Shown here one piece after another: positions 12,911 through 15,988 of a stretch of 64,000 nucleotides of DNA. The stretch is from Tannerella sp. GTDB lineage: Bacteria; Bacteroidota; Bacteroidia; Bacteroidales; Tannerellaceae. Each line of letters starts with the position of its first letter. Position 1 is the first letter of the stretch. The notes under the pieces are model-generated. The model was not told the DNA's origin and ran no database searches. It saw only the letters and a list, made by a program, of their open reading frames with translations. A program made the translations under genes and the position numbers. The stretch covers positions 1 through 64,000 of the forward strand of contig JAITVY010000030.1 of assembly GCA_031285565.1 (NCBI GenBank), given 5' to 3'.

Positions 12911-13043
12911 CAGCACCCAAAATCACTCTTCCCTGACCTTGTGTGGTGAGCCTTCAAGAATGGTAAATGGAAAGTAAATGGAAGCCAATCACTAAAGCAG
13001 ACAGTACCCAAAATCACCCTTCTTCGACCTTGTGTGGTGAGCC
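12911..13043. repeat. 42-bp direct repeat pair overlapping repeat element copy 1
   Basis: Two near-identical 42-bp segments lie at 12911-12952 and 13002-13043, 91 bp apart. Both run from CAG-ACCCAAAATCAC into GACCTTGTGTGGTGAGCC. The second leads into the full palindromic element that follows; the first is followed by unrelated sequence, so it looks like a duplicated or abandoned left end. Confidence 0.75.
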
Positions 13044-13228
13044 GACAGAGCCGTGAAGAAAGGCGTTAAGAAAAATCCGCTGTCTGAAAGTGCCGTTTAA
13101 GCGAGAGCAGAAGACAAGTTTACTTGTGTTTTGCCGAGTGAAGGCACTTCGCTGTGATAACAGCAAAATGCCGAGTTCGGATTTTTTAGACTTTCAAACG
13201 AGCTCTGTCGAGTGAAGCACACAAAGTC
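13026..13228. repeat. ~203-bp imperfect palindromic repeat, copy 1
   Basis: The outer ends GACCTTGTGTG (13026-13036) and CACACAAAGTC (13218-13228) pair at 10 of 11 positions. Inside, CGACAGAGC (13043-13051) pairs with GCTCTGTCG (13202-13210) and AAAAATCCG (13071-13079) with CGGATTTTT (13178-13186). GAAAGTGCC (13086-13094) pairs with GGCACTTC (13143-13150). GCAGAAGACAAG (13107-13118) pairs 10/12 with 13123-13134 around a TTTA loop. A second copy lies at 15634-15838. No protein is encoded. It sits just past the stop codon of the beta-galactosidase gene. Confidence 0.85.
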
Positions 13229-13238
13229 TTGTTCTTTG

Positions 13239-13262
13239 CTACTTTGCAACAAGGCAAAGTAG
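13239..13262. terminator. hairpin after beta-galactosidase gene
   Basis: CTACTTTGC (13239-13247) and GCAAAGTAG (13254-13262) form a perfect 9-bp stem with a 6-nt loop, starting 11 bp past the stop of the minus-strand beta-galactosidase gene. No T-run follows on the minus strand, so termination is uncertain; it may be part of the adjoining repeat. Confidence 0.45.
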
Positions 13263-13273
13263 GGAAAATGAAA

Positions 13274-15598
13274 CTACTTCTTAAACGCCTCCATCTTCAA
13301 ATAAACACGATAATCCTTTATCATCCCTGTTTTATTAGCTTCCGCGCGTGGCAGATAAGAAAACCCGGTAATCACCTTTTCTTCACCCAGATCAATCACA
13401 ATCTGATGCGGATGAGCAGGCTTGATCGTTGAATAATCCGTATGCCAGAAAGTTGATTCCTGAAGATCGAAAACATTACTTGCTATATTATTGGCTTCAT
13501 TTGTTTCTTCGCTGTCGGCATATACCACTTTCCAGTGCTGACGCGACACATTCTTGCCATCTTCGCCGGTTAGTTCCAGTTCCGCTATGGCAGCAAAATC
13601 ATCCCCGCCATGTGTATTCAATGTCTCCAGACAAATATAACGGATTTTTTCGCCCTGATTGAATTTTACCTGTTGCCATCCGTTTCCGGGTTTGAACGAA
13701 CCAGTCAGATAGACTTTTTCTTCCGACAAATCAAGATTCTCCCCCAATTTGCGGTGTGTATAAGCACCGTTACCACTCAACTGATCCAATATAGGTTGCC
13801 GTAAGCCTTCGGTTTTAGCTTCCTTAGGAGATGCCAGGTCAAAAATAATGATCTCATTCTCTCCCTCTTTTAGCCAACATCCCGGTAAATACAATGTCTG
13901 TTGTGGCCCAATTTCCCAATAACGTCCCAGCGCATGTCCGTTTACCCAAACAAGACCTTTACTCCATTTGCTCATATCCAGAAATGTATCTCCGGCCTTT
14001 TCAACTGTAAAAGTACCTTTATAATATGCCGACTTATCCTTTACAATGCCTGATACCACATACTTCTTATCTTTTGCAAAATCATACTCAACCGGGAAAA
14101 AGTAAACCTGCCAGTCTTTTTTCTCTACACCATCAATTTCAACCTTTTCAGTAATACCCTTCCAATCATATATACCTTTTCCGAAATTCATACGTCCCAT
14201 CGGTTCTACCAATATATCAAGTACGGCACCTTCGGCCACCGGAGGCAATATAACCATCCCTTCTCCTTTCATACGACTCAAAGTCGCGATTCTTTTGCCA
14301 TCTACAAATACCTGTGTCCAATCATGTGCTTCGGTAATAAGCATCGTCTGTTCCTTATCCGATTTAGCAAGTTGTGTACGATACATCACACTTCCCCATC
14401 CGAAATCAAAAAACTCCATTGCCTTTACATTTTCACTGATTTTCGGCTCTGGTAAATTATCAAATAAAGAAGCCGTTTCTGTTAATTCAAAAGCAGGAAT
14501 ATGAATCGTTGGTATTGAATCCGGAACTTCACTCAGTTTTTCTCCTTCGGGAAGATATTGCTCCAGTAACTTACGCACTTCATAATATTTAGGAGTAGCC
14601 CTACCCGACTCTCCGATAGGTGCATCATAATCGTAAGATGTACATGTTGGAGAAAAATTCGGGAAGTTTGCACCGGCCCAATGTCCGAAACTCGTTCCGC
14701 CATGCGTCATATACAAACTGAATGAAATATTACGGTCCAGCATTTCTTTCATTCCTTTTACCAGTTCTTCCGCACTCCGGGTTTCATGCTGTGCACCCCA
14801 GTGATCAAACCAACCCGACCAGAACTCACTACACATAAGCGGTGTATTCGGACGCAATTCTAACAATCTCCTAAACTGATCGTCAATATTAGCGCCGGTA
14901 CCGAAATTGATAGTCCACACTAGATCATCAAGCGCATTATTCTCAAAATTGGAATTCCAGTCACACTGGAACAACGGCACATCTGTGAATCCGGCACCCT
15001 TTACAATATCACGTATTTCAGCAACATACGGTTTATCAGTTCCAAATGCTCCATATTCGTTTTCTACCTGTACCATAATGATGTTTCCGCCTTTGGTGAT
15101 CTGCTGATCAGCCAGTTGTTTGCCAACTTCATTCATAAACAATCGCGTACGCTCCATATAATACGGATCTTGCTCACGTAGTTTAATATCGCCCTTTTTG
15201 AGCAACCACCAAGGCAATCCACCCATCTCCCACTCAGCACAAACATAAGGTCCGGGACGAACAATCACATATAAATCATTTTCCTGTGCCAAACGGCAAA
15301 AAGCCGCAATATCCTTTTGTCCGGTGAAATCATATACCCCTTCTTCCTCTTCATGATAATTCCAGAATATATACAAACAAACCGTATTCATACCAAGCGC
15401 CTTACACATCTGTATACGGTGCTCCCAGTATTCTTTCGGAATACGCGGATAATGGATTTCGGCCGCTTTAACCACAAAAGGTTCTCCATTCAGGAGAAAA
15501 GTCTTATCACCTATCTCAAATGAGCCTGAAGCCTCTTTTTGAGAACATCCTGATACTAAAACAAGGAAAATACCTAAAATAAGAAATAACTTTTTCAT
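13274..15598 (-). CDS. GH35 beta-galactosidase lipoprotein
   Basis: A 774-residue exported enzyme. ATG 15598 starts a lipoprotein signal (MKKLFLILGIFLVLVSGC, Cys18); the longer frame reads back into the upstream repeat and is rejected. Residues about 32-350 are the GH35 barrel: EIHYPRIPKEYW, RPGPYVCAEWEMGGLPWWL, the acid/base glutamate in VENEYG (Glu181) and the nucleophile in SEFWSGW (Glu258). Beta-sandwich domains follow, and the last 130 residues resemble a discoidin/F5-8C carbohydrate-binding module. It should release terminal beta-galactose from glycans in the periplasm or at the surface. It lies downstream of, and in line with, the GH127/GH43 gene. Confidence 0.93.
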   Translation of the reverse strand: MKKLFLILGIFLVLVSGCSQKEASGSFEIGDKTFLLNGEPFVVKAAEIHYPRIPKEYWEHRIQMCKALGMNTVCLYIFWNYHEEEEGVYDFTGQKDIAAFCRLAQENDLYVIVRPGPYVCAEWEMGGLPWWLLKKGDIKLREQDPYYMERTRLFMNEVGKQLADQQITKGGNIIMVQVENEYGAFGTDKPYVAEIRDIVKGAGFTDVPLFQCDWNSNFENNALDDLVWTINFGTGANIDDQFRRLLELRPNTPLMCSEFWSGWFDHWGAQHETRSAEELVKGMKEMLDRNISFSLYMTHGGTSFGHWAGANFPNFSPTCTSYDYDAPIGESGRATPKYYEVRKLLEQYLPEGEKLSEVPDSIPTIHIPAFELTETASLFDNLPEPKISENVKAMEFFDFGWGSVMYRTQLAKSDKEQTMLITEAHDWTQVFVDGKRIATLSRMKGEGMVILPPVAEGAVLDILVEPMGRMNFGKGIYDWKGITEKVEIDGVEKKDWQVYFFPVEYDFAKDKKYVVSGIVKDKSAYYKGTFTVEKAGDTFLDMSKWSKGLVWVNGHALGRYWEIGPQQTLYLPGCWLKEGENEIIIFDLASPKEAKTEGLRQPILDQLSGNGAYTHRKLGENLDLSEEKVYLTGSFKPGNGWQQVKFNQGEKIRYICLETLNTHGGDDFAAIAELELTGEDGKNVSRQHWKVVYADSEETNEANNIASNVFDLQESTFWHTDYSTIKPAHPHQIVIDLGEEKVITGFSYLPRAEANKTGMIKDYRVYLKMEAFKK

Positions 15599-15633
15599 AC
15601 GATAATATTTTATTTTTATTACATCCGTCCTAC

Positions 15634-15838
15634 GACCTTGTGTGGTGAGCCATAAAACAAGTGATAACAGTGTCAAAATCTATGCTGTCTGAAAGTGCCG
15701 TTTAAGCAAGAGCATAATACAAGTAAACTTGTCTTCTGCCGAGTGTAGGCACTTCGCTGTGATAACAACAAGGCTGAAAGCACGAGTTCATAGATTTTAG
15801 CTGCTGAGAGCAGTTTTATGAGTGAAGCACACACAGTC
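15634..15838. repeat. ~205-bp imperfect palindromic repeat, copy 2
   Basis: It has the same ends (GACCTTGTGTGGTGAGCC at 15634-15651; GTGAAGCACACACAGTC at 15822-15838) and the same core (from GCTGTCTGAAAGTGCCG at 15684) as copy 1. The intermediate arms differ from copy 1 but still pair with each other: CATAAAAC (15651-15658) with GTTTTATG (15813-15820), and AAAATCTATG (15675-15684) with CATAGATTTT (15789-15798). The core hairpin at 15712-15739 keeps 10/12 pairing around a TAAA loop. It lies between the GH127/GH43 stop and the GH35 start. Confidence 0.85.
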
Positions 15839-15954
15839 TTGACTTTTAGTGACTCTTGGGTTAAGCCAAAAGTTACAAAATCGTAACATAGGCTTCAATG
15901 CGATAAATTTGCGACTTTACCTTGTTGCAAATCGGAATGACGATTAGTATCTTT

Positions 15955-15986
15955 AATTGTCAATTGTCCACTGTCAATTGACAATT
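15955..15986. terminator. AATTGTCAATTG-type inverted repeat after GH127/GH43 gene
   Basis: AATTGTCAATTG (15955-15966) and CAATTGACAATT (15975-15986) are perfectly complementary around an 8-nt loop. It lies 2 bp past the stop codon of the minus-strand glycosidase gene. The same motif family recurs at 28659-28745. It is probably a transcription end or 3' stabilising hairpin; there is no clear T-run. Confidence 0.5.
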
Positions 15987-15988
15987 AA

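Follow-up and report, generated by a model that had tools for sequence, protein, structure and literature searches.

Repetitive extragenic palindromic (REP) sequences and bacterial interspersed mosaic elements (BIMEs) are presented, in the accessible parts of two reports (PMC3733652, PMC6006769), as multicopy, intergenic, imperfect palindromes that occur in head-to-head pairs and in species-specific versions and are mobilised by RAYT (TnpA-REP). The corresponding part of the second report also mentions "atypical secondary structures" beside TnpA-REP subclass 2.6, mostly from Bacteroidetes, with copies elsewhere in the genome (PMC6006769). From the human microbiome, the accessible text of PMC8040213 gives HMP2_4205 as a palindromic candidate structured RNA of 132 bp, mostly from Bacteroidetes, that was found by covariation. 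BrickBuilt of Porphyromonas gingivalis is introduced in the portion of PMC4596501 available to us as an intergenic miniature inverted-repeat transposable element (MITE) that has inverted repeats and holds a minisatellite. In this report, we describe a family of folded repeats represented by two copies in a 64,000-nucleotide stretch of Tannerella sp. DNA (assembly GCA_031285565.1, contig JAITVY010000030.1, positions 1 to 64,000 of the forward strand), hereafter called the window. The window's genome is denoted G000, other G numbers are further genomes, and L numbers are loci. The family is multicopy, intergenic, patchy in its distribution, and uneven between close relatives, and the compensatory divergence of its arms is genuine and reaches across the order Bacteroidales.

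An initial annotation of the window had pointed to two palindromes with the shared ends GACCTTGTGTGGTGAGCC ... GAGTGAAGCACACNNAGTC, a conserved core, and arms that differ between the copies yet pair within each copy. The sequence is as claimed: the palindromes are found at 13026-13228 and 15634-15838, the core of 88 nt is 90% identical between them, and the quoted arm pairs are all present (Table 1). The fold of copy 1 was found to have a z score of -6.9 relative to shuffled sequences, with 0 of 200 shuffles equal to it; for copy 2 the difference from shuffles is smaller (z -1.95; 6 of 200 shuffles equal it). The fold of copy 2 is insufficient if taken alone, and it is the evidence from the family that decides the reality of the observation. 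Two parts of the description are narrower than first stated. The ends are indeed shared by both window copies, but they covary in further copies and occur in G000 as two compensated versions, GACCTTGTGTGG/CACACNNAGTC and GGCCTTGTACGG/CGTACTAAGCC. The core is present in both copies, but it is a nested hairpin module that is lacking in most of the 32 units from G000.

Searching the whole genome with the conserved ends uncovered a dispersed multicopy family, larger than the two palindromes first noted. The head motif occurs 49 times in G000 at no more than 3 mismatches (2 times for the reversed control), and 29 occurrences of the tail motif compare with 0 for its control. The retrieved stretches of G000 contain 32 head-to-tail units of 127-273 nt, and the covariance model R1, described below, gives 36 matches. 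A typical unit is composed of an imperfect hairpin of ~130 nt and a tail hairpin; longer units hold nested modules, which account for the differences in length. There are three main arm types (GACAGAGC, ATAAAACAAG, and TGAAAAGCAGCG) plus a few others, and eleven heads precede another head on the same strand by about 80-130 bp. The core hairpin of the window copies is placed in the outer arm or 3' of the tail in a few units.

A DNA similarity search of 30 other genomes returned a single outside hit (L058) that looks like a chance match, and a looser head pattern was used to find genome-specific versions within the genus. In total, 64 units were collected from the genus, 32 of them from G000. 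From these, 27 units (13 from G000 and 14 from other members of the genus) were chosen and aligned with MAFFT to give alignment A1, the basis of R1; units with the core module, near-duplicates, and one unit of G000 with a rearranged inner stem (C64:17934) were left out. At a match threshold of E ≤ 0.001, with E-values that are rough, R1 matched 11 of 41 genomes of the genus and none of the remaining 30. The numbers of matches were 36 in G000, 35 in G035, 27 each in G031 and G049, and 17 in G047, with sparser representation in G037 (6), G032 (5), G014 (3), G034 (3), G033 (2), and G009 (1). When 7 candidates were scored per genome across the order, matches were obtained in 124 of 393 genomes, representing at least 83 of the 206 sampled genera. 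The family thus spans the order, a reach that DNA similarity alone misses. The best locus of 28 order genomes (L245-L272) was inspected, and the unit or its tail was visible in 27 of them; the weaker matches were not inspected individually. At E ≤ 0.01, six genomes gave 66, 34, 26, 14, 12, and 8 matches; many of the 66, from G173, are reversed partner hairpins, and about 35 are strong copies. The named carriers are a metagenome-assembled genome of Tannerella sp. (L080) and Parabacteroides distasonis TSDC17.2-1.1.

The letters of the arms, the inner stem, and the tail hairpin vary between species while the pairing is kept. Alignment A1 was not fitted to a structure, but the structure was derived from the same 27 sequences; 87.1% of the cells pair and 35 of the 57 pairs carry changes on both sides. 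The number of double-change cells was determined to be 203, compared with a mean of 70.4 in shuffled controls (0 of 500 reach 203) and 20-49 when the partner was slid, and four of five measures of covariation beat all 500 shuffles. The inner stem is 100% paired in every one of the 27 sequences, and double changes affect 6 of its 9 pairs. Alignment A2 contains 116 matches (112 distinct) and was fitted to the model, so it leans towards the model; it holds 1347 double-change cells, compared with 420.3 in shuffles and 194-310 in slides, and 50 of its 51 pairs are doubly changed. The arms do covary in further copies, with compensatory changes in excess of both the shuffled and the slid controls, and the fold appears to be selected, as had been proposed. 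A1 also contains fixed positions that are not complementary: C4, in at least 90% of the units, lies opposite an invariant A, and G14-A15 lies opposite an invariant G-A in 27 of 27.

The two strands are not equivalent. Each copy and its complement were folded freely, using the 104 of the 116 A2 rows that have at least 120 nt and are not duplicates. With RNA parameters the head-to-tail strand was more stable in 33 of 34 copies from G000, 29 of 32 from the genus, and 38 of 38 from the order-wide set, which represents 28 loci; with DNA parameters the corresponding counts were 33 of 34, 30 of 32, and 36 of 38. The orientations were set by the model match and may lean the same way, but the mean energy gap between the strands was large, about 7-12 kcal/mol. 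The ratios of G-U to A-C cells in the model-fitted alignment (139 to 21 in G000, 104 to 38 in the genus, and 91 to 24 in the order) also favor the head-to-tail strand, but the alignment leans likewise and free folding is the fairer test. That one strand folds better points to a selected single-stranded form, either RNA or DNA, for which such an asymmetry is needed, whereas a cruciform used by both strands could do without it. Of the original suggestion of a selected fold in RNA or extruded DNA, the selected fold is supported and a double-stranded extruded cruciform is disfavored.

The unit has CTTGNN at its foot, followed by the tail hairpin, whose six-base loop, NNCAAG, is in most copies the reverse complement of the foot. 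This relationship was tested with 41 copies. Of the 116 A2 matches, 39 were used, mostly one per genome, with 27 representing the order-wide loci; P. distasonis contributed the other two copies. Complementarity of at least 6 nt was found in 34 of the 41 copies, compared with 13.0 on average and at most 20 when the loops were shuffled among copies; for at least 5 nt, the values were 34 of 41, 26.4, and 31, respectively. The CTTG is nearly constant, and the next two bases (AT, AA, GT, AG, or TT) change together with those that open the loop. In L272 both the foot and the loop differ from the usual ones, and they are again complementary. Seven copies do not reach the 6-nt measure, including L260, L267, L269, and L270, which have other foot sequences. 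An H-type pseudoknot without linkers was considered and at first seemed sterically doubtful; complementarity of loop and foot is the milder claim.

The interpretation that we favor, and to which we give an even chance, is that the family consists of non-autonomous, REP/BIME-like mobile repeats that an enzyme recognises in the form of a folded single strand. The folded strand, exposed during replication or as a transcript, would be recognised by an enzyme supplied in trans, and the sequence of the arms could therefore drift as long as they pair. For the CTTGNN site, the tail loop may provide a guide or lock within the element itself. The initial annotation had treated a selected fold and a MITE-like origin as alternatives. 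The fold is kept, but it does not exclude mobility, and the contrast is not upheld because copy numbers are uneven, versions are genome-specific, modules are nested, and outer ends are complementary in G173. The unevenness is clearest in G031 and G014, which are both 99% complete and share 86-95% DNA identity where aligned; R1 finds 27 matches in the former and 3 in the latter. Head-to-head pairs are frequent in other genera, although they are not universal; they are found in G000 (C104), in G173 and G254, and at L245, L250, L258, L265, L270, and L440. In G173 (L399-L418, for example around 1078601), copies are part of a composite unit that also includes a partner hairpin in reverse and is bounded by ends complementary to each other, TATGTCAATCAGTAGTTG...ATGTTC; a left end, degenerate in some cases, could be located for 17 of 23 copies. 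Within one colinear stretch of ~27 kb, an incomplete copy in G031 lies in a mosaic of other repeats that is absent from G014, which fits with a gain. The intergenic regions of G031 at L178 and L181 look like mosaics of unrelated repeat families (for example, GTCATTCCGAACGCAGTGAGGAATC). A phage or plasmid origin was rejected: the window copy has no phage match and no plasmid match, and the hits to viral contigs (L081 and L082) look like chance.

Several observations weigh against the mobile, strand-recognised interpretation. The complementarity of the tail loop looks RNA-like. The suggested check for target-site duplications could be made over the one colinear ~27 kb stretch of G031 and G014, and neither a clean full-length empty site nor a duplication was seen there. 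An IS200/REP-like mechanism might predict a replication-strand bias, and none was found in G173 (10 of 17 copies with clear GC skew; 6 copies in windows of near-zero skew were left out). The number of further pair types in A1 is 72, compared with 68.5 in shuffles, of which 75 of 500 reach the observed value. In the orthologous copy compared between G031 and G014, no double change clearly compensates in place: one change from G-C to A-U forms a pair in the G014 fold but fails to do so in that of G031, some pairs of which are broken by other changes.

The search for a mobilising enzyme among Y1 transposases (PF01797) belongs with these difficulties. G000 gives no match to PF01797, and at E ≤ 0.001 the same holds for 22 of the 124 carriers; the domain was also sought in 16 chosen carriers, and the nearly complete G329 and G055 are, like G000, among the carriers that lack it. 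Across the order, PF01797 was found in 268 of 393 genomes: 102 have both it and the element, 22 the element only, 166 Y1 only, and 103 neither. The overlap is moderate (Fisher p 4e-5, odds ratio 2.9, uncorrected for kinship). R1 was run on sets of 30, 20, 30, and 20 Y1-match loci, which correspond to 97 distinct loci because three places were taken twice. Of these loci, 80 are in carrier genomes, 17 of the first 30 are in genomes without R1 matches, and several are weak PF01797 matches. A copy was near the Y1 match at only one of the 97 (L353, E 1e-17, 1.3 kb away), and the remaining R1 matches listed at these loci have E 0.22 or more. A RAYT/Y1 mobiliser is thus unsupported: at the loci scanned, copies do not flank the Y1 genes, and PF01797 is lacking in G000 and other carriers. 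A more specific version of the mobile interpretation, offered with considerable doubt, is that these are order-wide mobile elements that copy via a strand-specific folded intermediate, that the six-base loop pairs with CTTGNN and, as a built-in guide whose bases covary with that site, sets the cut or end site, and that the elements are moved by a non-RAYT/Y1 enzyme or by way of an RNA intermediate.

Alternatively, the repeat may act in transcripts as a structured RNA, where as a 3'-end element it would either attenuate transcription or stop exonucleases, with the tail loop pairing with the foot and the copies kept because they are useful. This explanation is possible, though we consider it somewhat unlikely. 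It is consistent with the better fold of one strand, with the loop-foot complementarity across genera, and with the number of G-U pairs per free fold, which is 5.85 versus 3.74 in G000 and 4.79 versus 1.45 order-wide, but not in the genus (3.22 versus 3.44). The arrangement of genes, based on longest-open-reading-frame calls and not on a trained gene finder, can be read in both directions. The head-side gene is on the strand of the element at 37 of the 52 head sites in G000 with a called neighbour, and divergent gene pairs are rare: the 32 full units of G000 include 22 between co-directional genes, 7 between convergent genes, and 3 between divergent genes, and the corresponding counts are 12, 9, and 1 for the 22 of 28 order-wide loci with both neighbours called. 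However, orientation relative to genes varies. Of 26 order-wide loci, 19 have their tail-side gene on the strand opposite to the element, and the 23 copies examined in G173 comprise 12 co-directional, 2 convergent, and 9 divergent cases. In the 120 nt that precede the head, 0 of 32 units have a Bacteroides-type promoter motif, which, at a background of 0.6%, excludes only a common promoter. Also against this RNA are the absence of a conserved gene partner in G000 and the copy numbers of G031 and G014.

The units are intergenic, except for overlaps with short or uncertain open frames. Both window copies had been noted beside glycoside hydrolase genes, and this is correct for these copies (GH35 and GH127-GH43) but not typical of those in G000, where 59 neighbour genes contain 112 Pfam families, none in more than 3 genes. 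With neighbours so diverse, the glycoside hydrolases are incidental, and a tie to them or to other specific genes is ruled out for G000. In each of three P. distasonis records (L440, L441, and L442), a copy is next to an HU-family gene within a small cassette, DUF3987 - DUF4248 - HU - element - smalltalk - amidase; at L440 there is also another copy, oriented the other way.

A classical MITE, in which a DDE transposase acts on terminal inverted repeats to move the copies as double-stranded DNA and the inner folds are incidental, is in our judgement unlikely. Uneven amplification and the composite unit of G173, bounded by complementary ends, would agree with such an element. However, no complementarity is visible between the leader and the region beyond the tail in G000, no transposase is found among the 25 commonest neighbour families, and no target duplication occurs in the G031/G014 stretch compared. 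The inner stems, far from the ends, covary across genera, which recognition of the ends alone would not require.

Palindrome correction is known from bacteria. The weakest explanation, that template switching inside hairpins or gene conversion copies one arm from the other and the pairing is mutational and unselected, could draw on this process, on whole arm blocks that differ between copy types while pairing, and on the one orthologous pair (G031/G014) without clear in-place compensation, but it is quite improbable given that correction would erase the conserved mismatches (C4 versus A; G14-A15 versus G-A), that one strand keeps the better fold, and that the foot with which the tail loop covaries is not part of the stem that carries this loop.

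The features of the family in the window are collected in Table 1.

Table 1. Coordinates and strands of the repeat copies in the window and of their parts.
Feature	Position	Strand	Description
Head-only copy, without tail	12911..12952	+	Leader 12911-12934 and head motif GACCTTGTGTGGTGAGCC at 12935-12952 (exact); 88% identity to 13002-13043
Leader 5' of copy 1	13002..13025	+	Same kind precedes many heads in the window's genome
Copy 1, folded repeat	13026..13228	+	Arm type GACAGAGC...GCTCTGTC; nested core module; model match 13026-13265, 127.5 bits
Nested hairpin core module, copy 1	13079..13166	+	88 nt, common to copy 2; parts match other contigs
Foot and tail hairpin, copy 1	13228..13262	+	Foot CTTGTT 13228-13233; stem 13239-13247 / 13254-13262; loop AACAAG 13248-13253, complementary to foot
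Copy 2, folded repeat	15634..15838	+	Arm type ATAAAAC...GTTTTAT; nested core module; model match 15634-15877, 109.3 bits
Nested hairpin core module, copy 2	15684..15771	+	90% identity to 13079-13166
Foot and decayed tail hairpin, copy 2	15838..15877	+	Foot CTTGAC 15838-15843; loop GTTAAG 15860-15865, complementary with one G-U; failed hairpin finder

The core module (CCGTTTAAGYGAGAGCA ... TGCCGAGYGTAGG), represented in the window by 13079-13166, was also observed at other unit positions (L188 and C41, C53, and C6 of G000), and in another species it is inserted 3' of a CTTGA foot; it may be a hairpin repeat in its own right. Head-only units followed by simple AT-rich repeats (TTGAAAATTGAAAATG, AGTTAATAGTGAATAG) were observed in G000 (C2, C20, C51, and C56) and in G035 (L187, L188, and L190), as if these were a second standing form in two species. 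Shortly after copy 2, a perfect inverted repeat, TTAATTGTCAATTG / CAATTGACAATTAA, lies at 15953-15988 of the window.

One conserved fold is thus present in at least 83 of 206 sampled genera, with tens of copies in the richest genomes. With many copies per genome and arms free to drift while they pair, the family amounts to a natural experiment in how selection acts on nucleic-acid structure. If the repeats are mobile, an as yet unrecognised mobilising system is implied; if they are transcribed, the same structured RNA lies beside many unrelated genes. P. distasonis is a named and cultivable carrier that makes the mobile and RNA explanations testable.

The statement that no described family has this layout still holds for Rfam and the literature searched, although an earlier catalogue entry is possible. 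Rfam gave no match at the gathering score for the window, and for 7 loci gave one hit that is below the gathering score (E 0.81) and off the element. The attC sites of integrons are strand-specific folded hairpins with conserved structure, drifting arms, and GTTRRRY/RYYYAAC ends. The present family resembles them in its strand-specific folded hairpin, kept structure, and drifting arms, but by eye it has no GTTRRRY/RYYYAAC ends, and it has no constant gene orientation and diverse neighbours. In the accessible portions of PMC8040213, PMC6006769, PMC3733652, PMC10969869, PMC5771137, PMC7366714, and PMC4596501, the family is not described. It appears to be undescribed in the sources searched, where candidates of the HMP2_4205 type were compared by description only.

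As far as the available descriptions go, BrickBuilt is likewise an intergenic Bacteroidales repeat with inverted repeats, but it holds a minisatellite where the present family has a conserved multi-loop fold with compensatory change. HMP2_4205 is similar in size, phylum, palindromic form, and covariation, and could be an earlier partial sighting of the family, in a comparison by description and not by sequence; the accessible text differs in reporting a predicted terminator seen on both strands (PMC8040213), whereas the present family favors one strand. The structures beside subclass 2.6, as described in the part of the source at hand, are from the same phylum, are atypical, and have copies elsewhere in the genome, and there may be an old or partial link to the family, again compared by description only. 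However, the genes with 2.6-like motifs (L366, L368, and L370-L372) have no R1 match nearby. At L372, a RAYT-like gene (about 2193-2841; motifs NHFHF and YIHTNP) has a different palindrome on both sides (AAACATTCCATTTCTCTC ... AGAAATGGAATGTTT), and the two are possibly a REP system of subclass 2.6.

The resemblance to REP sequences and BIMEs, within the parts of those reports available, is in the multicopy, intergenic, imperfect palindromes, the head-to-head pairs, and the species-specific versions. The differences are in the unit, which is 127-273 nt in G000 compared with a REP stem-loop of 20-40 bp; in the several conserved internal loops and the tail hairpin with its foot-complementary loop; and in the lack, by eye, of a common GTAG/CGTC foot before the head in the copies of G000, G031, G035, and G173, although TTCGTC occurs a few nt before many heads in G031 and not in the other three. 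In addition, no Y1 gene is flanked by copies at the 97 loci. The family is REP/BIME-like by its behavior, but it is not REP by its defining features.

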